From: a virus
Strand: one strand, 5' to 3'
IMG/VR virus record: IMGVR_UViG_3300042327_001260
Span: 62,001-126,000 of that record
Length of the DNA stretch: 64,000 nt
A program made the position numbers and the translations under genes. The notes beneath the pieces are model-generated. The model was not told the DNA's origin. It did not search any database and was given only the letters and a program-made list of their open reading frames with translations. Position 1 is the stretch's first letter; each line of letters starts with the position of its first letter. Below, piece after piece: positions 1,440-48,737 of this stretch.

Positions 1440-3263
1440 TTAAGATAAGTTTGTTTTATATTTTTTGAAAAACTCTAAAGGTATTTTTTCGTGTGATAAA
1501 TTGGTGTGAGTTAAAACTTTATTTTTTTCTAAACTTTCTAACCTTTTTTGTATTTTTGGATAATCATCCCAATTATTATAATTAGAAAGTGACTTAACTT
1601 GAGAAGGTAAACCACCATCTTTATATTTTTGGAACACCGTTTCAGATGTTGAAGGATCAATTAATCCCATGAAAACATAATCAGAGCTGCTTGATATAAT
1701 CTCATCCCAAACGTCAGTACCCCCGGCAGAAAAACCAACAATTTTATTTATTTTATTATTTTTTTTAACATTTGATAATTCCGTTGATGTGTAGTCTAAG
1801 AAAACCGCCTTGTCTACAGGTAATCCAGCATCCACCCATTGTGATTTCATCCATTCAGATGTTGCGTAACTCATACCACCAAAAACAACTGTTTTTCCAT
1901 TAGACGATGTATTATTTTCATTATTTAAGTCGTCATCTTCCTCTTCAGATTCTGCACCAACATAAAATAAATGCCAAGGTTCCTTCTTCCTAAGAGTACC
2001 GTCGGTTTTATATGTTACCTCAAATCCATAACTATTAGCATTATTTGCAACCCATTTTTTAACATCACTATTTGTATCCCACCAAGACGGATCAGTACTA
2101 AATATATCAAAGGCTTTACCTGTATGGTGTTGGCTAAATCCAGGTATAGTATTATAACTCTGAACATCGTCTATTGTTCTACCCCCTTTAACTTTAGTAC
2201 CAAAGTTTACTACTTGATCATCATAACTTCTATAATCTGAAATAATGTCGGTAGTAACTTTTGTAAATTGTTTTTTACAATCTTTAATTAACTTTTTTAT
2301 TTGTTTCTTCGCTTCACTGTCAACACCACCAGCATCTTCGGTTGTATCACCCTCTTGATCCATTTCTTTTTTAAGATGGTAATCGGTAATGTTTACCCCC
2401 CAATTTGTTTTTAATTTATCAACTGCCTTTTTAACGTCAGAAGGTAAATTATCATAAATTGATCCTGTTTTATTTCCATTATCAATTTTTATTTCATCAT
2501 TAATTGAATTCCTAATTTTAAATACGTCAGATTCGAAATTATCTTTTTTCCCGTTTTGGACAAAAACAAAATATTTATCTTCCATACCTGAAGGATCTTC
2601 ATCACAAACAGTTACACTTTTAGTCGAACCTTTAACCGATTCGTGGGTTTCCGTTCTACATTTTTGTGTTGTCGGGTAGTATTCCCAGTGTAAGTGGGGT
2701 CCTGTACCAACACCCTTATTTCCCACAGTGGCAACAATATCTCCTGGTAATACAGTCTCACCGTTTTCAAAGTACACACTATCACAGTGACAGTATTTAG
2801 TTATACTATTATCGTAGTGTTTTATTTTAAAACAAACGGGACCCTTATCTTGTATCACCCCTTTCTTTAATATTGCAATAGGTACTCCTGTACTATTTGC
2901 ATAATCTCTACCGGCATGCCAATGCCAATCACAGTATCTAACCTTTTTACCACAGAGACTCCAAATCGGTCCCCTCCAACCGTAAGTTTTACCTCTTTTG
3001 ACTGACCCAGAATAATAATTACTTGTATTTAATTTATTTATGTTTATTAAATTAGTTGAACTATAGTCATCCACATCACTATTTGATAAAACCTCATTTT
3101 CAGGATTTTTATAATCTCTATCAAAAGGTTTATTTGTGGTAAAATCAAAACCACGAGTATCACCGACTTTTTTACCCCCAGATGTTTCCCAATCTTTAAA
3201 GTAATGTCCGTAACCTTGTTCGGCAATTTCTTCCTTTAATATGTTAAGTAATTTTAAATACAT
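1440..3263 (-). CDS. Three-domain peptidoglycan hydrolase: M23 + M15 + serine-hydrolase-like
   Basis: This 607-aa protein would cut peptidoglycan peptides. Residues about 90-200 form an M23/LytM domain with H116/D120 (HAGRD) and H190-L-H192. Residues about 320-435 form an M15/VanY-like D,D-carboxypeptidase domain with S377-Q-H379-H-T-G-K-A-F-D386 and E428-P-W-H431. After an acidic linker, residues 457-607 contain G510-F-S512-A-G, the nucleophile elbow of alpha/beta hydrolases. The N-terminus MYLKLLNILKEEIAE has L9-K-E11 and I13-A-E15 and fits the leader family, so the enzyme may be packaged in the virion. It could instead be the lysis endolysin. A late-type motif lies 4 nt before the ATG. Confidence 0.85.
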   Translation of the reverse strand: MYLKLLNILKEEIAEQGYGHYFKDWETSGGKKVGDTRGFDFTTNKPFDRDYKNPENEVLSNSDVDDYSSTNLININKLNTSNYYSGSVKRGKTYGWRGPIWSLCGKKVRYCDWHWHAGRDYANSTGVPIAILKKGVIQDKGPVCFKIKHYDNSITKYCHCDSVYFENGETVLPGDIVATVGNKGVGTGPHLHWEYYPTTQKCRTETHESVKGSTKSVTVCDEDPSGMEDKYFVFVQNGKKDNFESDVFKIRNSINDEIKIDNGNKTGSIYDNLPSDVKKAVDKLKTNWGVNITDYHLKKEMDQEGDTTEDAGGVDSEAKKQIKKLIKDCKKQFTKVTTDIISDYRSYDDQVVNFGTKVKGGRTIDDVQSYNTIPGFSQHHTGKAFDIFSTDPSWWDTNSDVKKWVANNANSYGFEVTYKTDGTLRKKEPWHLFYVGAESEEEDDDLNNENNTSSNGKTVVFGGMSYATSEWMKSQWVDAGLPVDKAVFLDYTSTELSNVKKNNKINKIVGFSAGGTDVWDEIISSSSDYVFMGLIDPSTSETVFQKYKDGGLPSQVKSLSNYNNWDDYPKIQKRLESLEKNKVLTHTNLSHEKIPLEFFKKYKTNLS

Positions 3264-3360: not shown

Positions 3361-5562
3361 ATGAAACTAATAAAATATCTTATGATGTTTATAACCTTTT
3401 ATGGTTATTCACAATACTGCCCTTATTTGGGTCCGAATCAAATATTACCTTGTGGTGTAAACTCAACAACACTTACTGCAGATTTAAGTCAATGCGGTGT
3501 AGGACAAAACCCAAATGCAACAACCAATTACCAAAACACACAAATACCATATGTTGCGCAAACAAATACAGGAACGTCTTTAATTATGTCCGATGACTCA
3601 CAACAAGGACCTTTCAATATAGGATTTACTTTTTGTTTTTATGGAAACACATACAATCAGTTTTATGTCGGTAGTAATGGTTGGGTATCATTTTCCCCTA
3701 ACCAACCTGTAACGTATACATCTGCTAGTATTCCTTCAGCAGCAAATCCCGTTAATTCAATTATGGGTGCATGGCAAGATTGGCATCCAGGTTTAGGTGG
3801 ACAAATTAGGTATCAAGTACAAGGAACCGCACCTTGCCGTAAATTAGTTGTTAGTTGGGTAAATGTCCCTTTTTATTCATGTACATCAATAAATGGTACA
3901 TTTCATATAGTCCTTTATGAATCAACAAATGTTATTGAGGTTCATATTCAAAATAAACAATTTTGTGCTTGGGCAAATGGAACCGCAGTTCAAGGTATTC
4001 AAAACATTAATGGAACACAAGCAGTGACAACGCCAGGTAGAAACTCATCACAATGGACGGCACAAAATGATGGACGTAGATGGACACCATCAGGACCAAC
4101 AGTAACCCCAACATTGACTTGGTATCAAGTCGGTAATCCAAATCCTATTGGTACAGGTCCGACAATAACTGTTACTCCACCACAACAGGGGGCTAATTAT
4201 ACTTGCCAATTTGTTTACCCTTCTTGTAATGCGGGGTGGGCAACATGTAACAATAATGGTGGGTTGGGTCCTGATACTGTTTTTGTACAACCAGGACCAC
4301 CAAATTTACCACAACCTATTATTAATTTTACAAACCCAACATGTAATTCATATTGTGATGGTACCATAGATGTAATACCACAAGGAGGTAACGGTGTTCA
4401 AACTATATCTTGGATCGGTTCACAACCACCACAGTTTAATCAAACATCACTTTGTTCAGGTAATTATTCTTTTACAATAACTGATGCTGCTGGATGTACA
4501 GTATCTTCTAATGTTACGTTAGTTAATCCACCACAAATTTTTATAACACCGATTAGTGGTGAGGATACTATTTGTTACCTTTCTAATTTAGAAACATACA
4601 CTGTACCTACTATGGGTAACGGATTTATTTATACATGGATGTCAAATTCAAATATAACAGGTGGACAGGGAACTGAAACCATATCAACCGATTGGTCTCA
4701 ATTACCTTCAGGGTTTTATCAAAATTCTGTAAGTGTTTACACAACAAATCAAAATGGTTGTTATAGTGATACGTCATATTTTAATACATTTATTTTAAAT
4801 ATAAACCCAACAATAACCCCAATCGGACCTTTTTGTTCTTATGATGGTTGTGTTAGTTTAAATGCATCACCATTAGGTGGGGTTTTTAGTGGAGATAACG
4901 TTTTAAATAATCAGTTTTGTCCTTCACCGAATAATATATTAAATAATGTGACTTACACCTACAACCAATCAAACTGTATTTTTGACACTACAATTAACGT
5001 TACAGTAAACCCACAGCCAATCATTTTACCAATAACTCCGTCAGATGAATTTTTTGAACTTTGTGAAGGGGATTCTTTACCTAAAGTTTACACCACAAGT
5101 TCTAATTTATCAGGATTATTTGATTGGATAATAAACAATGATACCATTGAGGGTAACCCAATATCATATACTTGGTTACAGGAGGGGTTATATACTATAA
5201 CGGTAACACAAACATCGGACTATGGTTGTATATCACAACCACAACAAACCACGATTAGTATTGATAAGTGTCCCGAAGAATTAATCTTTATACCTAATAC
5301 TTTTACACCTGATGGTGATGAAAATAACAATGAATGGTATCCTGTTTTCACTTCAGGTTATGATCCATATAGATTTGAACTATTAATTTTTAATAGATGG
5401 GGTAATACAATATGGGAAAGTTATAACCCATCAGCAAAATGGGATGGTACATATGACGGTAAAAAATGTCAAGACGGTGTTTATTTTTGGACAATAACTT
5501 ACGGAGTTGAGGGTACTGACGAAAGAAAAGTAATACACGGACATTTAACAATTATTCGTTAG
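3361..5562 (+). CDS. Secreted surface protein with T9SS type B sorting domain
   Basis: A 733-aa protein with a signal peptide (about residues 1-17, ending GYSQ as in many Bacteroidota exports). It has a beta-rich N-terminal region with many Cys, Ig/PKD-like segments, and a C-terminal gliding-motility-associated domain. The last ~90 residues show PNTFTPDGDENN, FNRWGNTIWES, KWDGTYDGK and DGVYFWTITY, the hallmarks of type B (CHU_C-type) cargo of the type IX secretion system. I infer Sec export followed by T9SS delivery to the host surface or outside. The N-terminal fold (GFTFCFYGNTYNQFYVGSNG) recurs in the 45496 protein (IGFNFVYNGTTYTQFAVNTN). Its role may be superinfection exclusion, adhesion or virion decoration; none is proven. 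Confidence 0.88.
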   Translation: MKLIKYLMMFITFYGYSQYCPYLGPNQILPCGVNSTTLTADLSQCGVGQNPNATTNYQNTQIPYVAQTNTGTSLIMSDDSQQGPFNIGFTFCFYGNTYNQFYVGSNGWVSFSPNQPVTYTSASIPSAANPVNSIMGAWQDWHPGLGGQIRYQVQGTAPCRKLVVSWVNVPFYSCTSINGTFHIVLYESTNVIEVHIQNKQFCAWANGTAVQGIQNINGTQAVTTPGRNSSQWTAQNDGRRWTPSGPTVTPTLTWYQVGNPNPIGTGPTITVTPPQQGANYTCQFVYPSCNAGWATCNNNGGLGPDTVFVQPGPPNLPQPIINFTNPTCNSYCDGTIDVIPQGGNGVQTISWIGSQPPQFNQTSLCSGNYSFTITDAAGCTVSSNVTLVNPPQIFITPISGEDTICYLSNLETYTVPTMGNGFIYTWMSNSNITGGQGTETISTDWSQLPSGFYQNSVSVYTTNQNGCYSDTSYFNTFILNINPTITPIGPFCSYDGCVSLNASPLGGVFSGDNVLNNQFCPSPNNILNNVTYTYNQSNCIFDTTINVTVNPQPIILPITPSDEFFELCEGDSLPKVYTTSSNLSGLFDWIINNDTIEGNPISYTWLQEGLYTITVTQTSDYGCISQPQQTTISIDKCPEELIFIPNTFTPDGDENNNEWYPVFTSGYDPYRFELLIFNRWGNTIWESYNPSAKWDGTYDGKKCQDGVYFWTITYGVEGTDERKVIHGHLTIIR

Positions 5563-27090: not shown

Positions 27091-27120
27091 AAAATCCCCA
27101 TTTAAAAGTGGGGATTTTTT
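27091..27120. terminator. Bidirectional rho-independent terminator
   Basis: AATCCCCA-TTTAAAAG-TGGGGATT followed by TTTT on the + strand. It lies between the convergent 26422 and clpC-like genes. Confidence 0.88.
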
Positions 27121-29159
27121 TATGCTTTTAATTTTCTTTTTGTTGGTTTTTTAATCTTAACCTCGGTTTTTTTATCTTTTTCATTATAAGACAATAAAAA
27201 CTTAGAACCTTTTTCAGGATTATCCGATATAATCTTATCAGTTACAGCATCATCAACCCATTTTTGAATTGTTCTTTTTAGAATTCTAGCCCCGAACCTT
27301 GTATCTGTACCAACACCAATTATATGTTTTTTAAGTGTTTCATCAACTTCTAATTCAAAATCAATAGATTCTATTCTTTTGTAAACTTTAACAAGTTCTA
27401 ATTCAACAATTTTCATTAAATCGTCCTCATTTAAATCTTTAAAATAAATAATTTCATCAAATCTATTAATAAACTCAGGTGCAAATTTTTTGAATAACTC
27501 CTTTTCCAACACGGATTTAATTTCTTCGTCCTTTTGTTCTTGTTTTGAGTTTGTTGAAAACCCTACGCCCGTACCATATTGTTGTACTACTCTTGTACCT
27601 ACGTTTGATGTCATCAAAATAATACAATTTTTGAAGTTAATTTTTCTACCATGTCCATCAGTTAAAAATCCTTCATCTAACATTTGTAAAAATACGTTAA
27701 ATATTTCGGGGTGAGCCTTTTCAATCTCGTCTAACAAAATTACAGAATACGGTTTGTTTTTAATTTTATTTAAAAACGGGGAACCATCCTCATATCCAAC
27801 ATAACCTGGAGAAGTTCCCGTTAGTTTTGATGTTGCGATTTTATCTGAAAACTCACTCATATCTAATCTTATAAGTGCATCTTCGGTATTAAACATATGT
27901 TTAGCTAACTGTTTTGCTAATTCTGTCTTACCAACACCTGAATTACCAATTAATAAACCACTAAAGATTGGTTTTTTTGGATCATTCAAACCTACTTTAT
28001 TTCTTTGTATTGCTCTTGATATTTTACTTATTGCATCATTTTGTCCAACAACTTTATTACTAAGAGTTTTTTTTAAGGTTTTTAATTGTTCCGTTTCGTC
28101 GTTTGTTATTTTATTGATTGGTATTTTTGTCATTAAAGATACGACATCGTAGACAACCTCCTCAGTAACCTCTCTTTTATATAAGTTTCTATTTTTTTCA
28201 AATTCGTCCTTTTCTCTTTGTAAATCAGACAAAACTTTACGTTCCTTATCTCTAAGATTTGCAGCCTCTTCATATTTTTGGCTGTTAATTACCTTAACCT
28301 TTTCTTTTTTAATATCTTCCGCCTGCCTTTTTAAGTTCTCAATAATTTCAGGTAATTTAATTTCAACTTGTGATCTAGCACCAACCTCATCAATAATATC
28401 AAACGCCTTATCAGGAAATTCTCTATCTGTGATATATCTATCGGCTAATTCAACACATAGTTTTAAAATATCATCACTATATTTTACTTTATGGTGATTC
28501 TCATATCTTTCTTTTGAGTTTTGAAGTATCTCTAACGTCTCTTCTTTTGTTGAAGGGTCAACCATAACTTTTTGGAATCTTCTTTCAAGGGCTCCGTCCT
28601 TCTCGATGTTTTTTCTATATTCTTCTAATGTAGTTGCTCCAATACATTGTAATTCACCACGAGAAAGTGCGGGTTTAAATATGTTAGATGCATCCATAGA
28701 ACCTGAAGAGTTTCCTGCACCAATCATTGTATGTATTTCATCAATGAAAATAATAATATCAGGGTTCGCATAAAGTTCTTCAATAATAACTTTCATACGT
28801 TCTTCAAACTGTCCTCTATATTTTGTTCCTGCAACAATAGAAGTCATATCTAAAGAAACAATCCTTTTTCCTGATAAATTTTGCGGACAGTCCCCTTCAA
28901 AAATCTTTTTAGCTAACCCCTCAACAATCGCAGTTTTACCACAACCAGGTTCACCAAGAATTATAGGGTTATTTTTTTTCCTTCTTGATAGAATCTGAGC
29001 AATCCGATTAATTTCATTCTCTCTTCCAACAACAGGATCTAATTTACCTTCTTCTGCTAATTTGATTAAATCCCTTGAAAAATTATCAAGTACTGGGGTT
29101 TTTGTTGATCCGTCTTGGGATTTCTTCGGTTTTTCGTTACCGTCTACTGACTCTATCAT
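27120..29159 (-). CDS. ClpC-like AAA+ unfoldase lacking the N-domain
   Basis: A 679-aa Hsp100 ATPase. D1 has GEPGCGKT (69-76) and IIIFIDE (135-141). A UVR-like ClpC middle segment (QKYEEAANLRDKE) lies at about 294-306. D2 has GNSGVGKT (405-412) and VILLDEIEKAHP. The loop VGF (532-534) in D2 aligns with the ClpP-docking tripeptide of ClpC, so pairing with host ClpP is likely. Cellular ClpC has ~150 more N-terminal residues forming the adaptor-binding domain; here the sequence starts with a short charged tail just before D1. Substrate choice is therefore probably changed. It may degrade host proteins or tmRNA-tagged products. Confidence 0.9.
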   Translation of the reverse strand: MIESVDGNEKPKKSQDGSTKTPVLDNFSRDLIKLAEEGKLDPVVGRENEINRIAQILSRRKKNNPIILGEPGCGKTAIVEGLAKKIFEGDCPQNLSGKRIVSLDMTSIVAGTKYRGQFEERMKVIIEELYANPDIIIFIDEIHTMIGAGNSSGSMDASNIFKPALSRGELQCIGATTLEEYRKNIEKDGALERRFQKVMVDPSTKEETLEILQNSKERYENHHKVKYSDDILKLCVELADRYITDREFPDKAFDIIDEVGARSQVEIKLPEIIENLKRQAEDIKKEKVKVINSQKYEEAANLRDKERKVLSDLQREKDEFEKNRNLYKREVTEEVVYDVVSLMTKIPINKITNDETEQLKTLKKTLSNKVVGQNDAISKISRAIQRNKVGLNDPKKPIFSGLLIGNSGVGKTELAKQLAKHMFNTEDALIRLDMSEFSDKIATSKLTGTSPGYVGYEDGSPFLNKIKNKPYSVILLDEIEKAHPEIFNVFLQMLDEGFLTDGHGRKINFKNCIILMTSNVGTRVVQQYGTGVGFSTNSKQEQKDEEIKSVLEKELFKKFAPEFINRFDEIIYFKDLNEDDLMKIVELELVKVYKRIESIDFELEVDETLKKHIIGVGTDTRFGARILKRTIQKWVDDAVTDKIISDNPEKGSKFLLSYNEKDKKTEVKIKKPTKRKLKA

Positions 29160-35513: not shown

Positions 35514-37292
35514 ATGTCTTTATCAAAAGAACAAATATTATTAGAATATGCTAAATGCGTAAAAGACACACCATACGCATTAAAAACCTATCTACAAACA
35601 TACGATAATACACAATCTAAATACGTACCATTAGAACTTTTTAATGATCAAGTAACCTTGGTTAATGATTACGATTCTTCGGAAGAAAATATCGCGTTAA
35701 AATACAGACAGGCTGGCGTATCAACCGTAACCTCTGCATGGGCATCAAAAAGATTGGTTTTTGCCCGTAAAGAGAAACCAGAAAAGATTCTTATCATTGC
35801 AAATAAAATGGATACTGCCGTTGAAATGGCGAATAAGGTTCGTGCTTTTGTTGAACAATGGCCTAAATGGTTAGGTGTTACATTTTCTGCCGAAAAAAAT
35901 TCACAAAGACATTTTAAATTAACAAACGGTTGTGAAGTAAAAGCGGTGGCAACATCAAAGGATGCCTTAAGGGGATATACACCAACAATATTAATTTTTG
36001 ATGAGGCGGCGTATATTAACGCAGATGAAGACTTTTGGTCTGCTTGTATGGCTTCCCTTTCAACAGGAGGTAAAGTGATTGTAATCTCAACACCAAACGG
36101 TTTTGATCCGATTTATTATTCAATTTATAGTCAAGCAGTTAAAGGTATGAATGACTTTAAAATTACAGAAATGTATTGGTTTAGGGATCCAAGGTATTCT
36201 AAAGATTTAAAACTAATTAAATGTAATGATATTGTTCATTACATGCTTAATAGGGCGGATTATAAAGACAATGAAATAACCCTTGATTATTCAGATATTA
36301 AAGTAAGTGATAGGGATTTTCAAGAGATAAAGAAAAAAGTAGAACAGGAAGGTTATAAGGCGTATAGTTCATGGTTTGAAGCTATGGCTAAAAAGTTAAA
36401 GTTTGATAAAAGAAAGATATCACAAGAACTTGAATGTAATTTTTTAGGATCAGGGGATAATGTTATTCCTGCAGAAACAATGAAAAAAATTAAAGAAAAT
36501 TATATTAGAGAACCTGAGAATAAATTTATGGGTGGGGCTCTTTGGCAATGGAAAGAACCAATTGCCGGACATCGTTATATTATGGGTGTCGATGTTTCAA
36601 GAGGGGATAGTGAAGATTTTAGTACTATAATTATAATCGATTTTGATGATAGAGAACAGGTTTTGGAATATATTGGAAAAGTTCCTCCTGATATTTTAGC
36701 AGAAATAGCATTTAAATGGGCAACAATGTATAATTCATTTATTGTTGTCGATATTACCGGAGGTATGGGTGTATCTACCTCAAGAAAATTACAAGAATTA
36801 GGTTATAAGAATTTATATATTGATGGTATAAACCCTGCAGATAAATGGAAATGGGATCCCAAATCACAAGAAAAGATACCGGGAATTAACTTTAACGCTA
36901 AAAGGGTTTTAATAGTTCAAGCCTTTGAGGAGGCATTAAGGTTTGACTTTGCGTTAAGGTCACAAAGACTTTTTAACGAATTAAACACCTTTGTTTATAT
37001 AAACGGAAGACCTGATCACCAAAAAGGACAACATGATGACTTAATAATGTCATTGGCTATGGCTATATATGTTGGTGAAACGTCATTTGCACAATTAGAA
37101 AAATCTACACAACAAGCAAAGGCGATGATTGATTCTTGGACAACAGAAACTAACACATTTAAAGAATCTTCACAGAATTTTAATCCCGGATTACCCGTTG
37201 ACCCAAACAATAATTTTGGGTACGGAAGGAATCAAGCAACTAAAAGTGATTATGAAAACTATTTATGGTTATTCGGTGGTAAAAGGGTTTAA
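35514..37292 (+). CDS. Terminase large subunit (T4 gp17-like)
   Basis: A 592-aa DNA-packaging motor. The N-terminal ATPase has the arginine-containing Walker A variant KYRQAGVST (63-71) and Walker B LIFDEAAY with D163-E164. The C-terminal RNase H-like nuclease has D360 in MGVDVSRGD, a second acidic strand (VVDITGGMG) and the final HDDLIMSLA. It acts at the portal vertex. It starts 3 nt after the upstream stop; portal and protease follow, as in T4-type head modules. Confidence 0.95.
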   Translation: MSLSKEQILLEYAKCVKDTPYALKTYLQTYDNTQSKYVPLELFNDQVTLVNDYDSSEENIALKYRQAGVSTVTSAWASKRLVFARKEKPEKILIIANKMDTAVEMANKVRAFVEQWPKWLGVTFSAEKNSQRHFKLTNGCEVKAVATSKDALRGYTPTILIFDEAAYINADEDFWSACMASLSTGGKVIVISTPNGFDPIYYSIYSQAVKGMNDFKITEMYWFRDPRYSKDLKLIKCNDIVHYMLNRADYKDNEITLDYSDIKVSDRDFQEIKKKVEQEGYKAYSSWFEAMAKKLKFDKRKISQELECNFLGSGDNVIPAETMKKIKENYIREPENKFMGGALWQWKEPIAGHRYIMGVDVSRGDSEDFSTIIIIDFDDREQVLEYIGKVPPDILAEIAFKWATMYNSFIVVDITGGMGVSTSRKLQELGYKNLYIDGINPADKWKWDPKSQEKIPGINFNAKRVLIVQAFEEALRFDFALRSQRLFNELNTFVYINGRPDHQKGQHDDLIMSLAMAIYVGETSFAQLEKSTQQAKAMIDSWTTETNTFKESSQNFNPGLPVDPNNNFGYGRNQATKSDYENYLWLFGGKRV

Positions 37293-37331: not shown

Positions 37332-39137
37332 ATGGCACAAGAAAAATATACTGTTTGGCAAAGATTAAGTAAGGCTTTTGGACCTAATTCAACTATGGAT
37401 CAACAATCCCCTGTATTTAAATTTGACAAAAAAGAGTTATTAAAAACAACAGATAAGGGTGAGTTTGAAAAAGAAAAACTACAAGCTCAACAAACAATGT
37501 ACATTGGTAAACAATGGCAGAAAGTGGAAAGTAATTTATACCAACAAGCGGTATATTATGAACCAACAAGAATGGCTTCATATTACGATTACGAGTCCAT
37601 GGAGTATACTCCAGAAATTTCTGCAGCATTAGACATATATGCAGAAGAATCAACCACCCCCGATCAAGACGGACATATATTAAAAGTTTATTCAGAATCA
37701 AAAAGAATAAAATCTGTACTAACAGATTTATTTATTAACAAAATGGACATTAATACAAACTTACCTATGTGGACTAGAAACACCTGTAAGTTTGGGGATA
37801 ATTTTATATACCTAAAGTTGGATCCTGAAAAGGGAATTGTTGGGTGTCAACAGTTACCTAACATTCAAATTGAAAGGTTAGAAAAAGGTATGAGATTTCA
37901 GCCTGACAAATATTCTCAAGAAATGGAAAACGATGCCTTGAAGTTTGTTTGGAAAGAAAAAAATATGGAGTTCAATACTTGGGAGGTTGGTCACTTCAGA
38001 ATACTTGGAGATGATAGAAAACTACCATACGGAACATCGATGTTAGAAAAAGCAAGACGTATTTGGAAACAGTTATTACTTTCTGAAGATGCCATGTTGA
38101 TATACCGTGTTTCAAGAGCACCTGAAAGAAGAGTATTCAAGGTTTTTGTTGGTAACATGGACGATAAGGACGTTGATGCATATGTACAAAGAGTTGCCAA
38201 TAAATTTAAAAGAGATCAAATCGCCGATCCTAAAACGGGTAATGTCGATATGAGATATAATCAATTGGCGGTTGATCAGGACTTTTTTATACCTGTAAGA
38301 GACGCATCAGCAACAAACCCAATAGAAACCTTACCAGGAGGGACAAACCTAGCTGAAATTGCGGATATTGAATATATTCAAAAGAAACTTGTGACTGCAC
38401 TTAGAATACCTAAAGCTTATTTAGGATTTGAGGAGGCTGTTGGTGACGGTAAAAATTTATCACTACTTGACATTAGATTTGCAAGAACCATAAATAGAAT
38501 ACAAAAATCAATGATTGCCGAATTAAATAAAATCGCAATCATTCATTTATTTTTATTAGGGTTTGAAGATGAACTGACTAATTTTACTTTAAGTTTACAT
38601 AACCCATCAAAACAGGCAGATTTATTATCTATTGAATTGTGGAAAGAAAAAATAACATTATTTAAAGATGCCGTGGCACCAATACAAGATTCTGTAGCAC
38701 CTGTATCGGCATCTTGGGCTAAAAAACATATATTAGGTTTCTCAGACGAAGAAATTAGGCTTGATTTACAACAACAAAGAATTGAAAGGGCAGTTTCTGC
38801 GGAACTTGGTAAAACTGCTGAGGTTATTACTAAAACAGGTGTCTTCGACAATATTGATAATCTTTATGGTAAAAAAGAGGGGGATAAAGGTGCTGATGCC
38901 GGAGGAGCTGGTGATTCGGATTCTGGAGGTTCTACACCACCACCGGCAGGAGGGGAAGATACCCCACCACCGGCAGGAGGAGCTGAACCACCAACAACGG
39001 AAAGATTGGTTAGAAGTGATTTAGATTTGTTAATAGAAGAAAACTTATTTAGCGGTAAAAACTATATGGATTTATCAAAAGGAAGAAATTCTTTAATTGA
39101 AATGGACGATAGATTGAGAAATTTAATAGACAAGTAA
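37332..39137 (+). CDS. Portal vertex protein (T4 gp20-like)
   Basis: 601 aa, about the size expected for the T4-type portal. Features include YYDYESMEYTPEISAALDIY, a GDNFIYLKLDPE strand and RISRAPERR-like text (YRVSRAPERRVFKVFVGN), the conserved portal core. The C-terminus has a Gly/Pro-rich linker (GGSTPPPAGGEDTPPPAGG) and a charged tail with L/I-x-E (LLIEENLF, LIEMDD). A dodecameric ring at the packaging vertex is expected. Position after terminase supports it. Confidence 0.92.
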   Translation: MAQEKYTVWQRLSKAFGPNSTMDQQSPVFKFDKKELLKTTDKGEFEKEKLQAQQTMYIGKQWQKVESNLYQQAVYYEPTRMASYYDYESMEYTPEISAALDIYAEESTTPDQDGHILKVYSESKRIKSVLTDLFINKMDINTNLPMWTRNTCKFGDNFIYLKLDPEKGIVGCQQLPNIQIERLEKGMRFQPDKYSQEMENDALKFVWKEKNMEFNTWEVGHFRILGDDRKLPYGTSMLEKARRIWKQLLLSEDAMLIYRVSRAPERRVFKVFVGNMDDKDVDAYVQRVANKFKRDQIADPKTGNVDMRYNQLAVDQDFFIPVRDASATNPIETLPGGTNLAEIADIEYIQKKLVTALRIPKAYLGFEEAVGDGKNLSLLDIRFARTINRIQKSMIAELNKIAIIHLFLLGFEDELTNFTLSLHNPSKQADLLSIELWKEKITLFKDAVAPIQDSVAPVSASWAKKHILGFSDEEIRLDLQQQRIERAVSAELGKTAEVITKTGVFDNIDNLYGKKEGDKGADAGGAGDSDSGGSTPPPAGGEDTPPPAGGAEPPTTERLVRSDLDLLIEENLFSGKNYMDLSKGRNSLIEMDDRLRNLIDK

Positions 39138-39152: not shown

Positions 39153-39887
39153 ATGATTATGAATACATTTGGTAATATTAAAACAAATATAGAAAGGGTG
39201 GCTTCTGAATTGGCTAAAAAACCAGAATTTAAAAGATTTATTTTTGAATTTAATGGTTTGGTTCTAAAAAATAAAGATATAAGTGAGTTATATAGTATAT
39301 ATGACGATTTATCGTCTAATAAAGGAATTGCTCCTGATATTGTTAATGATTATGTTAATGAATCTATAGAATACTCTCAGATTCTTTTAGAAAGTCAGAG
39401 AAAAAATATTGTTCATTTAAATAATTGGATTTCTTCTTGGACTAAATCAAATAAAAATGATTATTCCGATATAGATAATGCGGTTTATAATAACAGTATA
39501 AGAAATTTAGAATCAGTTTTAGAATCTAAAAATAACATAAAGAAAACTTTAATAAGTGAAGAAAAAATTACTGTTAAAGAAAATATAAATCTACCTATAA
39601 GTTCGATGGTTAGTATTGCTAACAAGACTTTATCAAAACAAATTTCAAATTTATCAGAAGGAGATAAAAAAGAATTAGAATCAATATTAACAATGGATTA
39701 CGATACTATGAAAAAAGATTTTAATTCATTAAAAGAAGATGTTGTAAAAAAATTAAAAATCACTTTAAATGAATCTTCAGAATCAAGTGTTGGAGATTCA
39801 ATTAGCAAGACAATAGAAAAAATAATGGATGCAAAATGCAACTATTATGACTATTATAAACTTAAAAAATTAAATTTGGGACTATGA
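39153..39887 (+). CDS. Hypothetical helical head-region protein, 244 aa
   Basis: Not recognised. Predicted helical and Ser/Asn/Lys-rich, beginning MIMNTFGNIKTNIERVASEL; ATG at 39159 is an alternative start. Between portal and protease, where T4 has small prohead core genes (gp67/gp68), so a minor core component is possible, though no homology is visible. Stop overlaps the next start. Confidence 0.55.
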   Translation: MIMNTFGNIKTNIERVASELAKKPEFKRFIFEFNGLVLKNKDISELYSIYDDLSSNKGIAPDIVNDYVNESIEYSQILLESQRKNIVHLNNWISSWTKSNKNDYSDIDNAVYNNSIRNLESVLESKNNIKKTLISEEKITVKENINLPISSMVSIANKTLSKQISNLSEGDKKELESILTMDYDTMKKDFNSLKEDVVKKLKITLNESSESSVGDSISKTIEKIMDAKCNYYDYYKLKKLNLGL

Positions 39888-40156
39888 AAAAATTTTTTAA
39901 TGGTTTAGGTGGGTTGTTCAAGGATAGTAGTGGAAATGCGTCTTCAAAAAGATTCATAGGAATACTTTGTGGTGTTTCTCTTTGTATTACTTTGTATGTG
40001 AACAGTTATTCTCACGGTGATATCAAACCTTCAGACACACTTGTTAATGCGGTTGCAATGTTAGCTTTTGGGTGTTTAGGGTTAACCTCCACAGAAAAGA
40101 TTTTTGGAAAAAAATCAGAAGAAAAAAAAGAAGACAATAATCAAGAAAACATTTGA
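39884..40156 (+). CDS. Holin-like small membrane protein
   Basis: 90 aa. A short N-terminus with DSSGNASSKRFIG precedes two hydrophobic segments (about 28-43 and 57-73) and a charged Lys/Glu tail. The G-N-x-S-S-x-R start before TM1 and the charged tail match a family of small phage membrane proteins annotated as holins. It would form inner-membrane holes at lysis. Holin function is inferred. Confidence 0.6.
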   Translation: MKKFFNGLGGLFKDSSGNASSKRFIGILCGVSLCITLYVNSYSHGDIKPSDTLVNAVAMLAFGCLGLTSTEKIFGKKSEEKKEDNNQENI

Positions 40157-40329
40157 TTTTTTTGTTTGTGTTTTGCTTTTTGAATTTGAGCCCTTCGTAT
40201 AACGGAGGGTTTTTTGTATTCCTTCCTTTCTTGTAATTGTTGTATTTGTTTTGTTTTATAAATTTTAAATTTATAATTCTTTAATGCTTGCTCAATAGAC
40301 TTTTCATTTTTAACCGGTACTATAATCAT
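40141..40329 (-). CDS. rpsU: Phage-encoded ribosomal protein bS21
   Basis: 62 aa, close to the 64-65 aa of Bacteroidota bS21. MIIVPVKNEKSIEQALKNYK and YKKPSVIRRAQIQKAK match the family core: an I-P-V-K start, A-L-K-x-Y/F-K, and K-P-S-V-x-R. bS21 binds the 30S platform near the 16S 3' end. As I recall, in Flavobacterium it helps hide the anti-Shine-Dalgarno using a tyrosine near position 54; here position 54 is His. A strong AAAAGGA Shine-Dalgarno lies 7 nt before the ATG, unlike its neighbours. It is antisense inside the late head operon and carries a + strand terminator within its coding sequence. Expression late in infection is suggested by an ATATTTAT motif. Confidence 0.9.
   Translation of the reverse strand: MIIVPVKNEKSIEQALKNYKFKIYKTKQIQQLQERKEYKKPSVIRRAQIQKAKHKQKNQMFS
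40191..40215 (+). terminator. + strand terminator inside the antisense bS21 gene
   Basis: CCCTTCGT-ATA-ACGGAGGG (one T-G bulge pair) followed by TTTTTT on the + strand, 35 nt after the holin-like gene. On the - strand it encodes KPSVIRRA of bS21. Confidence 0.75.
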
Positions 40330-40336
40330 ATTTTTT

Positions 40337-40343
40337 TCCTTTT
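40337..40343 (-). promoter_or_regulatory. Shine-Dalgarno AAAAGGA of bS21
   Basis: On the - strand AAAAGGA lies 7 nt before the ATG at 40329. No other gene checked here has a comparable site. Confidence 0.75.
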
Positions 40344-40348
40344 ATGAT

Positions 40349-40356
40349 ATAAATAT
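40349..40356 (-). promoter_or_regulatory. Late-type promoter motif for bS21
   Basis: Reads ATATTTAT on the - strand, 19 nt before the bS21 ATG, leaving room for the Shine-Dalgarno in the transcript. Confidence 0.5.
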
Positions 40357-40435: not shown

Positions 40436-40885
40436 ATGAAAAAAGGAAAAACATCAAAATTAAACATATTTGATGAAGCAAAATGTCACTATGGGACGGT
40501 AGACTCTAAAAATTTTAAATCAATTTATATAGTATTACAAACGTGGATCGAACCAATAGTTGATCACAGTAATTGGAATAAAATCACGGGGGAGTTAAAA
40601 AGACAAATTTTACACACATTATTAGAAGTGGCTGATACCACAACATTTGAAAGGAAATATATTGTTGATTTAGATTTAAGGACAAGTGGAATACAAAAAA
40701 ATAAAAAAAGTTTTTTAAATCTTGAAATAACTTTATTTGTTAATAATCAAAATCTTAATTTTAAATCTTTAATTTTAAGAGGAAAAATAAAAAAAATCTT
40801 AGAGTCAGTGTATATTGATGACTTAAAAAATTCAAAGTATTTTATATTAAGTAAAACGAAATTGAAAGAAACGGTAAGTATATAA
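40436..40885 (+). CDS. Hypothetical protein, 149 aa
   Basis: Not recognised. Begins MKKGKTSKLNIFDEAKCHYG; alternating strands and helices, basic. Divergent from bS21 with a 106-nt gap. A weak TTATATTTTTT stands where other units have ATATTTAT. Placed just before the prohead protease, so likely a late gene. Confidence 0.6.
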   Translation: MKKGKTSKLNIFDEAKCHYGTVDSKNFKSIYIVLQTWIEPIVDHSNWNKITGELKRQILHTLLEVADTTTFERKYIVDLDLRTSGIQKNKKSFLNLEITLFVNNQNLNFKSLILRGKIKKILESVYIDDLKNSKYFILSKTKLKETVSI

Positions 40886-40906: not shown

Positions 40907-41614
40907 ATGAAAATATTAGGACCTAAAGATACAGGAAAGGGTATTTTAGTTGAGTGGGATGCTGGAGTTATAAACCCTAATGATGCCAGAAATAATCAAG
41001 TTATTAAAGAATCTTACGGACAGTTAGATTATTCTAAACCATTTGTATTTTATGCAACATTACAAAAATACGGAGTACCAAATAGAAACGGAAGAATTTA
41101 TCCTGAAAAAATATTAAAAAGAGAAGCTGAAAAATATAAGGATATGATTAATAGAGGTATGTCAATATCCGAATTAAATCACCCTGAATCATCACTTATT
41201 GATTTAGATAGAGTTGCCCATTTAATTACAGACATTTGGTGGGAAGATAACGTACTAATGGGTAAAATAAAATTATTAACTACTCCGGGGTTTCATGAAA
41301 GAGGTATTGTATCATCTAAAGGAGATGTTGCGGCAAACATGATGAGACAAGGTGTTACTATGGGAGTATCTTCTCGTGGTGTTGGTTCACTTGTTAAAAA
41401 AGGAGAACAAAATGAAGTACAAGATGATTTTGAATTAATATGTTTTGATTTAGTGTCGTCACCATCGACACCTGGAGCATATCTTTATTTAAATCAAGAT
41501 GACAGACCTAAGTATGAAGAAAAACTTGAAGAACATCGAGTTGAAGTTTCTAACTCCGGTTTAGACAAATCTATTGACTTAATGAAAAGATTATCCGATT
41601 ATTTGGGTAAATAA
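40907..41614 (+). CDS. Prohead protease (T4 gp21-like)
   Basis: A 235-aa serine protease that matures the prohead. The expected triad is visible: H92 in ELNHPE, S155/S156 in GVSSRGVGS, and D181 in ICFDLVSSPSTPGAY. In T4, gp21 cuts scaffold, capsid and internal proteins after L/I-x-E. Here such sites occur in the capsid protein (I58-N-E60), many in the scaffold, and in the N-terminal leaders of about 18 other proteins. Order protease-scaffold-capsid is the same as in T4. It is probably active only inside the prohead. Confidence 0.93.
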   Translation: MKILGPKDTGKGILVEWDAGVINPNDARNNQVIKESYGQLDYSKPFVFYATLQKYGVPNRNGRIYPEKILKREAEKYKDMINRGMSISELNHPESSLIDLDRVAHLITDIWWEDNVLMGKIKLLTTPGFHERGIVSSKGDVAANMMRQGVTMGVSSRGVGSLVKKGEQNEVQDDFELICFDLVSSPSTPGAYLYLNQDDRPKYEEKLEEHRVEVSNSGLDKSIDLMKRLSDYLGK

Positions 41615-43473: not shown

Positions 43474-45348
43474 ATGGGAGCATTATTAGAATCAGGTCTT
43501 GTAGGTAACATCGGGTTGAAACACCTTAAAGTTATCAAAGAAGATACAATTAACAAATGGGATCGATTAGGATTCCTAGACGGTCTAAGAGGACACGTTA
43601 AAGAGAACATGGCACAATTATATGAAAACCAAGCATCTCACTTAATCAATGAAGCAGCATCTACTGATAGTTCAGGTTCTTTTGAAACTGTAGTATTTCC
43701 TATCGTAAGAAGAGTATTCTCTAAATTATTGGCTAATGACTTAGTTTCTGTACAAGCAATGAACTTACCTATCGGTAAATTGTTCTACTTTGTACCAAGA
43801 ATTCAAGGTTATGAAACAAGTACTGAACAAACCGCAGCTAATAATTATGATGGTTACGGAACTCATTATTCACCTGTTGGTGCACCTGGTAACACTACAG
43901 GGATTGGTGCAGGATATCCAGGTGGATCAGGTTCTTCATTCAAGAAAAATCTTTATGATTTATTCTACGAAGGAGCTGAAGGACAATTAGATCCTCCAGG
44001 AGTATTTGATTACTCTAAAGGTAAATGGACAGCAGTAACTCAAGATGCTACTGTACAAGTATGGAATGGTTCATCATTAACTGGAGCAACTAACCAATAC
44101 CCTACAGGTACAAACATAAGAAAGGCTATTATTAAACTTTGTGGTTGGACACCAATTGCAGGAAATGGTAAATTAGTTGGTCCTGATGGTTCTGAAGTTG
44201 ACTCTGAGACTTTTCTTTCTGACTTAAGAGTATTTTCTGCTCAACCTAAAGCAACATCTCCATTATCAGCATCAACACCATGTAGCGTTGCGTTTGACAG
44301 TAACAATAACCCTAATTCATTATTATTTAGAGTTGTTACTCAACAATACGGACAAGGTATTGTTGGACCTACTTCAACATTAACAGATGTACCTTATCCA
44401 TCGGAAGGTAATGGTGGTTCATACTACAATATTTGTTCTCAAAATGGATGTATCTTCTTAGAAGTTGATTTATCATGTCCGGCATGTGCCGATTGTGGAT
44501 CAACATCATTGGATGGTTACACAGGAACTACATTGACAGGTCCTTTAAGTGGTGACGCATTTACAGTAGTTTGGAGAAGATATGCAAACTTAGAATTCGA
44601 AGATCAAATTGGTGAGGTTTCTTTCGATTTAGAATCAGTAACTGTTTCTGTAACTGAAAGAAAACTAAGAGCACAATGGTCACCTGAATTGGCACAAGAC
44701 GTTTCAGCATTCCATAACATCGACGCTGAGGCTGAATTAACGGCATTATTGTCTGAGCAAGTGGCGGCTGAAATCGATAGAGAAATCTTGAGAGACCTTA
44801 GAAAAGGAGCAGCTTGGAATTTACGTTGGGATTACAACGGATGGAGAAGAGTACAAGGAGTTAATTCATATACTCAAAAAGATTGGAACCAAACATTAAT
44901 TACAGCAATCAACCAATTGTCAGCACAAATTCACAAATCTACTTTGAGAGGTGGTGCTAACTGGATCGTTGTATCTTCTGAGGTTTCTGCAATCTTTGAT
45001 GACTTAGAATACTTCCACGTATCTAACGCTTCACCTGAGCAAGATCAATACAACATGGGTATTGAAAGAGTTGGTACTCTTGCAGGACGTTACCAAGTGT
45101 ATAGAGATCCTTACTTCCCATCAAATCAAATTTTGATTGGACACAAAGGAACATCATTGTTAGACACAGGTTATGTTTACGCACCGTACGTACCTCTACA
45201 ATTAACACCTACAATGTATAACCCATTCAACTTTACACCTATCAAAGGTATAATGACAAGATACGCTAAGAAAATGGTTAACAACCGTTTCTACGGACGT
45301 ATCACAGTTGATGGAGTTAGAACATTTGACTTGAGAGAATTGAGATAA
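43474..45348 (+). CDS. Major capsid protein (T4 gp23-like)
   Basis: 624 aa. N-terminal segment AQLYENQASHLINE ends in I58-N-E60 followed by Ala, aligning with the gp23 maturation site after E65. Next comes FPIVRRVFSKLLANDLVSVQAM, the conserved gp23 start of the HK97 fold. Conserved late parts are EIDREILRDLRKG, GGANWIVVSSEV, GRYQVYRDPYF, and VYAPYVPLQLTP. About 230 residues in the middle look like an insertion with a Cys cluster (CSQNGCIF, SCPACADCG). Codons are more C/G-ending than in neighbours, as in highly expressed genes. Confidence 0.95.
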   Translation: MGALLESGLVGNIGLKHLKVIKEDTINKWDRLGFLDGLRGHVKENMAQLYENQASHLINEAASTDSSGSFETVVFPIVRRVFSKLLANDLVSVQAMNLPIGKLFYFVPRIQGYETSTEQTAANNYDGYGTHYSPVGAPGNTTGIGAGYPGGSGSSFKKNLYDLFYEGAEGQLDPPGVFDYSKGKWTAVTQDATVQVWNGSSLTGATNQYPTGTNIRKAIIKLCGWTPIAGNGKLVGPDGSEVDSETFLSDLRVFSAQPKATSPLSASTPCSVAFDSNNNPNSLLFRVVTQQYGQGIVGPTSTLTDVPYPSEGNGGSYYNICSQNGCIFLEVDLSCPACADCGSTSLDGYTGTTLTGPLSGDAFTVVWRRYANLEFEDQIGEVSFDLESVTVSVTERKLRAQWSPELAQDVSAFHNIDAEAELTALLSEQVAAEIDREILRDLRKGAAWNLRWDYNGWRRVQGVNSYTQKDWNQTLITAINQLSAQIHKSTLRGGANWIVVSSEVSAIFDDLEYFHVSNASPEQDQYNMGIERVGTLAGRYQVYRDPYFPSNQILIGHKGTSLLDTGYVYAPYVPLQLTPTMYNPFNFTPIKGIMTRYAKKMVNNRFYGRITVDGVRTFDLRELR

Positions 45349-47577: not shown

Positions 47578-48294
47578 ATGATAGATGAAATTATAAAAAG
47601 AATATTAAGAGAGGCTGATTCTACAAGTAGATATGCTGGTTATTATAATGGTCCTTTAAGTATGGGTGAAATAGAATGGGATAAACAATCACTAGCACCA
47701 TTTAATCAAAAAGTTTCAAAATTTTATAATCCAGAATTAGAGTATGATAGTTATGACGGAAGTTTAGAATCACATAAAAAAAATATAAAAAAATTAGAAT
47801 CAAAATCCCGTCAAATTTCTAGGTATAATAAAACACATAAAAAAGAAAACGATGAGGATGGAGGTGTTATAAATCAAACGCCAGGAAAAAATAAAAAAAT
47901 TGTACCCATAAAAGAGTGGGTTGAATTAGATAGTATTATACTAAATGAAGATTTAGCGGTTTGGTTTGGAACAAAAAAGAAACCAAAGGGTTCTAAACAA
48001 CCAAAAGGTCCGTGGGTAGATATTTGTAGAAAAGTTAACGGTAAACACCCCCCTTGTGGTAGAGCGGATGCTGATAGTAAATCATACCCTAAATGTAGAG
48101 CAGTAGGAGTCGCAGGTAAAATGTCAGATTCACAGAAAAAAGCGGCTTGCCAACAAAAAAGAAGAGCCGAGAAAAAAGACACTCAAACAGGTAAAGGACA
48201 AAAACCTGTTATGACTCATTATGAGACAAAAAAGAAAAGGACTCAAAAAGAGTCCTTAGAAATTGTTGTAAGAAATATCTTGAATAATTTTTAA
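47578..48294 (+). CDS. Leader-bearing protein with DUF5872-like C-terminal domain
   Basis: 238 aa. Leader MIDEIIKRILREADS with L10-R-E12. The C-terminal region (LAVWFGTKKKP, GPWVDICRKVNGKHPPCGR, YPKCRAVGVAGKMSDSQKKAA) matches a Cys/Lys-rich phage domain resembling DUF5872. It is very basic, so DNA contact inside the head is plausible. The final 15 residues (SLEIVVRNILNNF) again look leader-like. It converges on the - strand genes with a 4-nt overlap. Confidence 0.7.
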   Translation: MIDEIIKRILREADSTSRYAGYYNGPLSMGEIEWDKQSLAPFNQKVSKFYNPELEYDSYDGSLESHKKNIKKLESKSRQISRYNKTHKKENDEDGGVINQTPGKNKKIVPIKEWVELDSIILNEDLAVWFGTKKKPKGSKQPKGPWVDICRKVNGKHPPCGRADADSKSYPKCRAVGVAGKMSDSQKKAACQQKRRAEKKDTQTGKGQKPVMTHYETKKKRTQKESLEIVVRNILNNF

Positions 48295-48737
48295 CAATAC
48301 GCCCCTGAACAACGTTTTTTACCGTCAAGTCCTGGTTTTGTGCCTTTACAAACTTGGACTGCGTATCCATTTGCGTAGGCACTAGGGTAAACATCAAACT
48401 TAGATTTTGCTGCGGCTTTACCTCTCGCACATAATTTAGTGCCTGATTTTTTTCTACCTTCTTCAATCATATCGTCATCCTCTTCATCATGATTTCCTTC
48501 ACCATTCATTTCATTCATAATAAAATCAAATACTTGATCCATATTATTTTTTGCTTCTGCAATATGATCCTGAGCCCAATCATGTCCATGTTCTAAGATA
48601 GATTCAACCTCTTCTTTGTCCATATCTAATAACATGTCACATTGACGTTTCATTTGTTCTAAATTTGAAAAAAACATATATCTACTTGATTCATGTTCTT
48701 CTCTAATAACCTTTCTAATAATTCTATTTAAATTCAT
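48291..48737 (-). CDS. Leader-bearing protein with small Cys/Lys-rich C-terminal domain
   Basis: 148 aa from MNLNRIIRKVIREEHESS; upstream in-frame ATG at 48767 is less likely because the leader begins here. I11-R-E13 is the predicted cut. The middle is acidic. The C-terminus (KLCARGKAAAKSKFDVYPSAYANGYAVQVC in parts, then GKKRCSGAYC) matches a small domain common in phage proteins. It converges with the 47578 gene, whose product has the same architecture: leader, acidic part, basic Cys domain. Confidence 0.7.
   Translation of the reverse strand: MNLNRIIRKVIREEHESSRYMFFSNLEQMKRQCDMLLDMDKEEVESILEHGHDWAQDHIAEAKNNMDQVFDFIMNEMNGEGNHDEEDDDMIEEGRKKSGTKLCARGKAAAKSKFDVYPSAYANGYAVQVCKGTKPGLDGKKRCSGAYC

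Follow-up and report, generated by a model that had tools for sequence, protein, structure and literature searches.

What is a gene for ribosomal protein bS21 doing between the terminase and capsid genes of a virus, and do a histidine at the place of a conserved tyrosine and a Shine-Dalgarno (SD)-like site ahead of the gene mean that the phage changes how host ribosomes select their start sites? The locus that raises these questions lies in a window of 64,000 nt (the whole stretch of DNA that was analysed, bases 62001-126000 of the 128-kb virus record IMGVR_UViG_3300042327_001260). A preliminary description of the window had recognized a 62-aa bS21 homologue, and this is borne out by the open reading frame together with its match to the PF01165 Ribosomal_S21 profile, which scores 39-40 bits against a cut-off of 27 and covers positions 2-54 of 55. 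Its placement of a His at the conserved Tyr54 also stands, since the phmmer alignment with the F. johnsoniae bS21 in 7JIL is gapless and puts His54 on Tyr54. The closest host bS21 proteins are about 50-56% identical and mostly from Flavobacteriaceae, which, together with a phage protein that bears a type IX secretion-signal domain, supports the premise of a Bacteroidota host.

The bS21 gene is reversed, with the terminase, portal, 244-aa (p244) and 90-aa (p90) genes on one side and the 149-aa, protease and major capsid genes on the other (Table 1). This context is common to about 100 related IMG/VR loci, which are not independent samples, as far as each contig extends, and the 149-aa gene adjoins bS21 in those loci that reach that far. 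No tRNAs were found in the 64,000-nt window, and no Rfam RNA family matched around the bS21 gene.

Table 1. Features of the bS21 locus in window coordinates; gene starts are longest-ATG predictions.
Feature	Position	Strand	Basis or remark
Terminase large subunit (TerL)	35514..37292	+	PHROG 2, E 4e-37
Portal protein	37332..39137	+	PHROG 213, E 2e-65
244-aa protein (p244), function not assigned	39153..39887	+	without PHROG match
90-aa convergent protein (p90), function not assigned	39884..40156	+	3' end overlaps bS21 by 16 nt
bS21 (rpsU-like) gene, 62 aa, His at F. johnsoniae Tyr54 position	40141..40329	-	PF01165 and 7JIL alignment
Intrinsic-terminator-like hairpin and T tract, antisense to bS21 codons 39-48	40187..40218	+	predicted end of the TerL-portal-p244-p90 transcript
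SD-like AAAGGA region (AAAAGGA) in bS21 leader	40336..40342	-	duplex with 16S tail, -6.2 kcal/mol
TATTTATA promoter-like octamer, sense	40348..40355	-	19-26 nt before bS21 ATG
149-aa protein, function not assigned, divergent from bS21	40436..40885	+	without family match
Head maturation protease	40907..41614	+	PHROG 207, E 5e-43
Major capsid protein	43474..45348	+	PHROG 138, E 2e-66

Phages of this kind have been described by Chen et al. 2022 (PMC9723584), whose bS21 phage clades a-e are myoviruses of freshwater Bacteroidetes, with bS21 on the reverse strand between the terminase/portal and protease/capsid genes and expressed late, together with the structural genes. In that work residue 54 is aromatic, "often Tyr54 but in a few cases His54", His54 being classed as aromatic and expected to keep stacking on A1534, and the authors propose that phage bS21 enters host ribosomes with the anti-SD still blocked. 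The locus studied here resembles these clades in its reversed bS21, its gene context, its Bacteroidota hosts and its aromatic residue 54 (the His that occurs in few of them), and judging from its sequence the window phage belongs, as an ordinary representative, to the bS21-carrying Bacteroidota myoviruses already known. It departs from the published account in an SD-like leader, a promoter-like motif and a candidate antisense terminator, which are absent from the main text of PMC9723584, where neither "promoter" nor "terminator" occurs and no SD analysis of phage genes is given; the promoter-like motif and the putative terminator of phage bS21 appear to be unreported.

With respect to residue 54, we observe only Tyr, Phe or His across about 100 phage loci, with His confined to the close relatives of the window (L002-L006) and Tyr or Phe in the other relatives. 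In the genes compared, Tyr is mostly TAC and His CAC, a single-base difference. Among hosts, His54 is present in 6 of the 80 closest genes and in 20 of 30 sampled genomes of the Weeksellaceae (the family of Kaistella), where it is the commonest residue. If His54 opened the anti-SD, genomes that carry it should stop avoiding SDs. In samples of 400 kb from each of five genomes (threshold -6 kcal/mol), the two His54 genomes had 5 SD genes versus 19 in the mock and 9 versus 18, similar to the three Tyr54 genomes (10 versus 32, 5 versus 12 and 10 versus 24). We thus rejected a connection of His54 with the use of SDs by hosts, as avoidance is kept in the two His54 genomes just as in the three with Tyr54. 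Furthermore, a strong SD ahead of rpsU, which in its extended form is typical of other Flavobacteriales, is missing in all 30 Weeksellaceae sampled (L184, L215-L243). Ten of these have Tyr54, so the loss is a trait of the family and not a consequence of the His, and the family probably lacks the kind of rpsU autoregulation seen in F. johnsoniae.

The bS21 leader reads ...TATTTATATCATAAAAGGAAAAAAAT-ATG, in which AAAGGA is able to pair with UCCUUU of the 16S tail. Duplexes were computed with the F. johnsoniae 16S tail, and the energies, obtained with ViennaRNA, are best compared only among themselves; on this scale the leader, at -6.2 kcal/mol, is the strongest among 61 window starts scored and the third of about 154 starts in the record, two other predicted starts reaching -6.4 kcal/mol. 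The AAAAGGA site of the preliminary description is present, and its remark that the other starts it checked lack such a site is thus almost correct. The GG of the site is found in 10 of 99 related loci, most of which have CC at the same spot. A value of -6.2 kcal/mol is reached by 7 of 49 distinct bS21 leaders and by none of 256 other distinct gene starts (genes above 100 aa, related loci), compared with 27 in a mock window further upstream. These phages avoid SDs like their hosts, with bS21 as a partial exception. On the portal and protease tree the GG state occurs both in the window clade and, apart from it, in L030 (the sister, L044, has CC), and L163 is a further case outside that tree. 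Two lineages or more have therefore gained or retained the SD independently of each other; given this recurrence and the excess over other gene starts, some role for the site may remain.

Host rpsU is autoregulated via an extended SD of -14 to -21 kcal/mol and 9-13 bp, and values below -13 are required for this regulation (McNutt et al. 2023, PMC9976891). By our method, rpsU leaders of the closest bacterial relatives with Tyr54 fall between -17 and -22 in 67 of 74 cases. The phage gene is like F. johnsoniae rpsU in that it has an SD although SDs are avoided in the rest of the genome, and unlike it in that the site comprises 6 bp, falls well short of -13 with its -6.2 kcal/mol and is absent in most relatives. 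In addition, the SD occurs together with Tyr54 in L012/L015, L027/L030 and L163, which uncouples it from His54. We read the weak AAAGGA as a lineage-specific feature that is probably no regulatory switch.

The preliminary description had gone further and proposed that the phage protein could alter start selection on host ribosomes and that the phage gene itself would be translated best with the anti-SD exposed; on this model His54 would weaken the anti-SD pocket. The increase of strong-SD reporters in F. johnsoniae with bS21 Y54A (PMC9976891) is in favour of this proposal, but His54 is native in Weeksellaceae and the two such genomes sampled still avoid SDs. The missing rpsU SD of His54 Weeksellaceae would fit as well, except that the Tyr54 members lack it too. 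A further point in favour is that bS21 has the strongest SD of the window while other phage gene starts have none; against the proposal, phage genes that avoid SDs would not be favoured by an unmasked anti-SD, and the bS21 site itself is weak, mostly absent from relatives and not linked to the residue. We consider the proposal distinctly unlikely, and neither a disarming of anti-SD hiding by His54 nor a gene tuned to an exposed anti-SD is supported; with the residue common in a host family in which the genomes sampled avoid SDs, and with phages that avoid them as well, a His54 "switch" can largely be set aside. A narrower version, which seems more improbable still, would make the SD, of moderate strength, a valve in some lineages, where ribosomes lacking host bS21 would prefer the gene and the phage protein would refill them, His54 slightly loosening the pocket. 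Degradation by a phage Clp-type protease would be one example of such a loss of host bS21; McNutt et al. (PMC9976891) speculate both on an exchange for phage bS21 and on a protease, encoded by bS21 phages, that would act on the host protein. The window has a match to a phage ATP-dependent protease family at 27120-29159 on the minus strand (PHROG 4871, E 7e-224).

Turning to transcription, TATTTATA starts 24-29 nt ahead of the bS21 ATG in 98 of 99 related loci. The window holds 23 copies on both strands, 11 of which are sense and at most 40 nt upstream of genes, against 0.38 expected. The octamer lies upstream of the 244-aa head-cluster gene and TATTTAT(C) upstream of the protease gene, and several minus-strand genes have TATATTTG in its place, which we take to resemble the Bacteroidota -7 element. 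Interpretation of the octamer as a T4-type late promoter, TATAAATA, facing away from bS21 was rejected, as the same octamer is mostly sense (TATTTATA) before other genes. We infer from this distribution that bS21 is transcribed from a phage promoter of the same class as those of the structural genes, and a shared promoter-like motif would explain its transcription with them despite the opposite orientation. If T4-like spacing is assumed, the bS21 leader would be about 13 nt long, and the mRNA would start at AAAGGA or close to it. At many window genes TATTTATA often ends 4-8 nt ahead of the ATG, and numerous phage transcripts may thus have little or no leader sequence.

A further feature lies within the bS21 gene. 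The plus strand at 40187-40213 reads TGAGCCCTTCGTATAACGGAGGGTTTT, followed by more T, and folds into an 11-bp hairpin of -14.6 kcal/mol, 31 nt downstream of the p90 stop codon. It has the features of an intrinsic terminator, namely a G+C-rich hairpin near a gene end with a T tract directly after it. Ninety of 100 loci share the 16-nt overlap of the two convergent genes. Among the window hairpins that have a T tract and reach -13 kcal/mol or stronger, this one is the sole case inside a gene, and the others are intergenic. The bS21 codons opposite to it encode KKPSVIRRAQ, and those in the stem are seldom used in the phage (as shares of the codons for their amino acids, CCC about 5%, TCC 3%, CGA 1% and AGG 12%); nevertheless CCC, TCC, CGA and AGG are present in 46, 43, 37 and 43 of 49 distinct genes, with variation at loop codon 43. 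None of 20,000 synonymous recodings reached -14.6 kcal/mol. Good hairpins are absent in 12 of 100 loci, having been lost in a few lineages, and a search of about 100 nt around the gene revealed no substitute terminator in these; a terminator for bS21's own transcript was likewise not found. These patterns suggest that the bS21 codons are constrained to encode a terminator of the TerL-portal-p244-p90 operon on the opposite strand, where transcription would end. In convergent gene pairs the terminator of one gene may sit in the 3' portion of its partner. The candidate described here is alike in this position, and differs in that it occupies the ribosomal-protein motif KKPSVxRRA and is kept with rare codons across a phage family. 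The promoter-like motif and this putative terminator, encoded within a conserved ribosomal-protein motif, are two testable additions to the known system. Because of the second, the strand of RNA reads that map to phage bS21 has to be known, as the 3' part may carry the transcript of the facing packaging operon.

The hairpin might instead act in the sense bS21 mRNA, being bound by bS21 or slowing translation at its rare codons, and the sense strand does fold, with -7.3 kcal/mol for the versions met most often, and contains CCCUCCG, a sequence similar to the core of the anti-SD. However, in 24 of 26 versions the antisense fold is more stable than the sense fold, whose strand has C-A mismatches where the antisense strand forms G-U pairs; for host genes the median is -4.8. 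The T tract follows the stem on the antisense strand only, and 88 of 100 loci have a hairpin of -7.5 kcal/mol or stronger shortly after the convergent gene's stop codon; a role in the sense mRNA is therefore unlikely. Starting from what the sequences hold, namely the identity and context of the gene, its conserved motif, the conserved antisense hairpin with its T tract and the avoidance of SDs, we consider it probable that this is a phage bS21 of the known kind, which replaces the host protein and preserves the hiding of the anti-SD, with an antisense terminator in addition. Late expression from a phage promoter of its own on the reverse strand is probable, and the protein would probably replace host bS21 in 30S subunits, where His54 would stand in for Tyr54 with the anti-SD kept hidden and SD-less initiation, used by the phage's own genes, would continue. 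Independently of this ribosomal role, codons 39-48 would also serve to terminate transcription of the packaging operon that faces the gene. That phage bS21 is a decoy, or an RNA-binding regulator acting elsewhere and not built into ribosomes, is very improbable: its N-terminal half is consistently unlike that of hosts (YKFKIYKTKQ versus YKRKFDKTGT) and the literature found does not demonstrate incorporation into Bacteroidota ribosomes, but the restriction of position 54 to Tyr, Phe or His, the kept KPSV...R...KA core and the entry of a Pelagibacter phage bS21 into E. coli ribosomes, as cited in PMC9723584, argue for a ribosomal protein.

We also observe signs of exchange at the locus. L012 and L015 are mosaic, with terminase, portal and protease 94-95% identical to those of the window, whereas identity falls to 67%, 50% and 82% for the 244-aa, 90-aa and bS21 proteins, and they combine a window-type bS21 leader with a Tyr54 gene and different 90-aa and 244-aa proteins. 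This pattern suggests recombination in the bS21 module, in which the 244-aa, 90-aa and bS21 genes seem to have been exchanged together and the window-type leader kept. A second, divergent bS21 gene is found in some Bacteroidota genomes (L347, L350/L351, L352). Elsewhere in the window, a second overlapping convergent pair (47578-48294, plus strand, facing 48291-48737, minus strand) has a terminator-like hairpin inside the facing gene (48236-48258, minus strand). At 3361-5562 on the plus strand, next to a VanY/M23 peptidase gene (1440-3263, minus strand), the phage encodes a 733-aa protein with a PKD-like domain and a C-terminal type IX secretion signal domain (CHU_C), apparently addressed to the host type IX secretion system.
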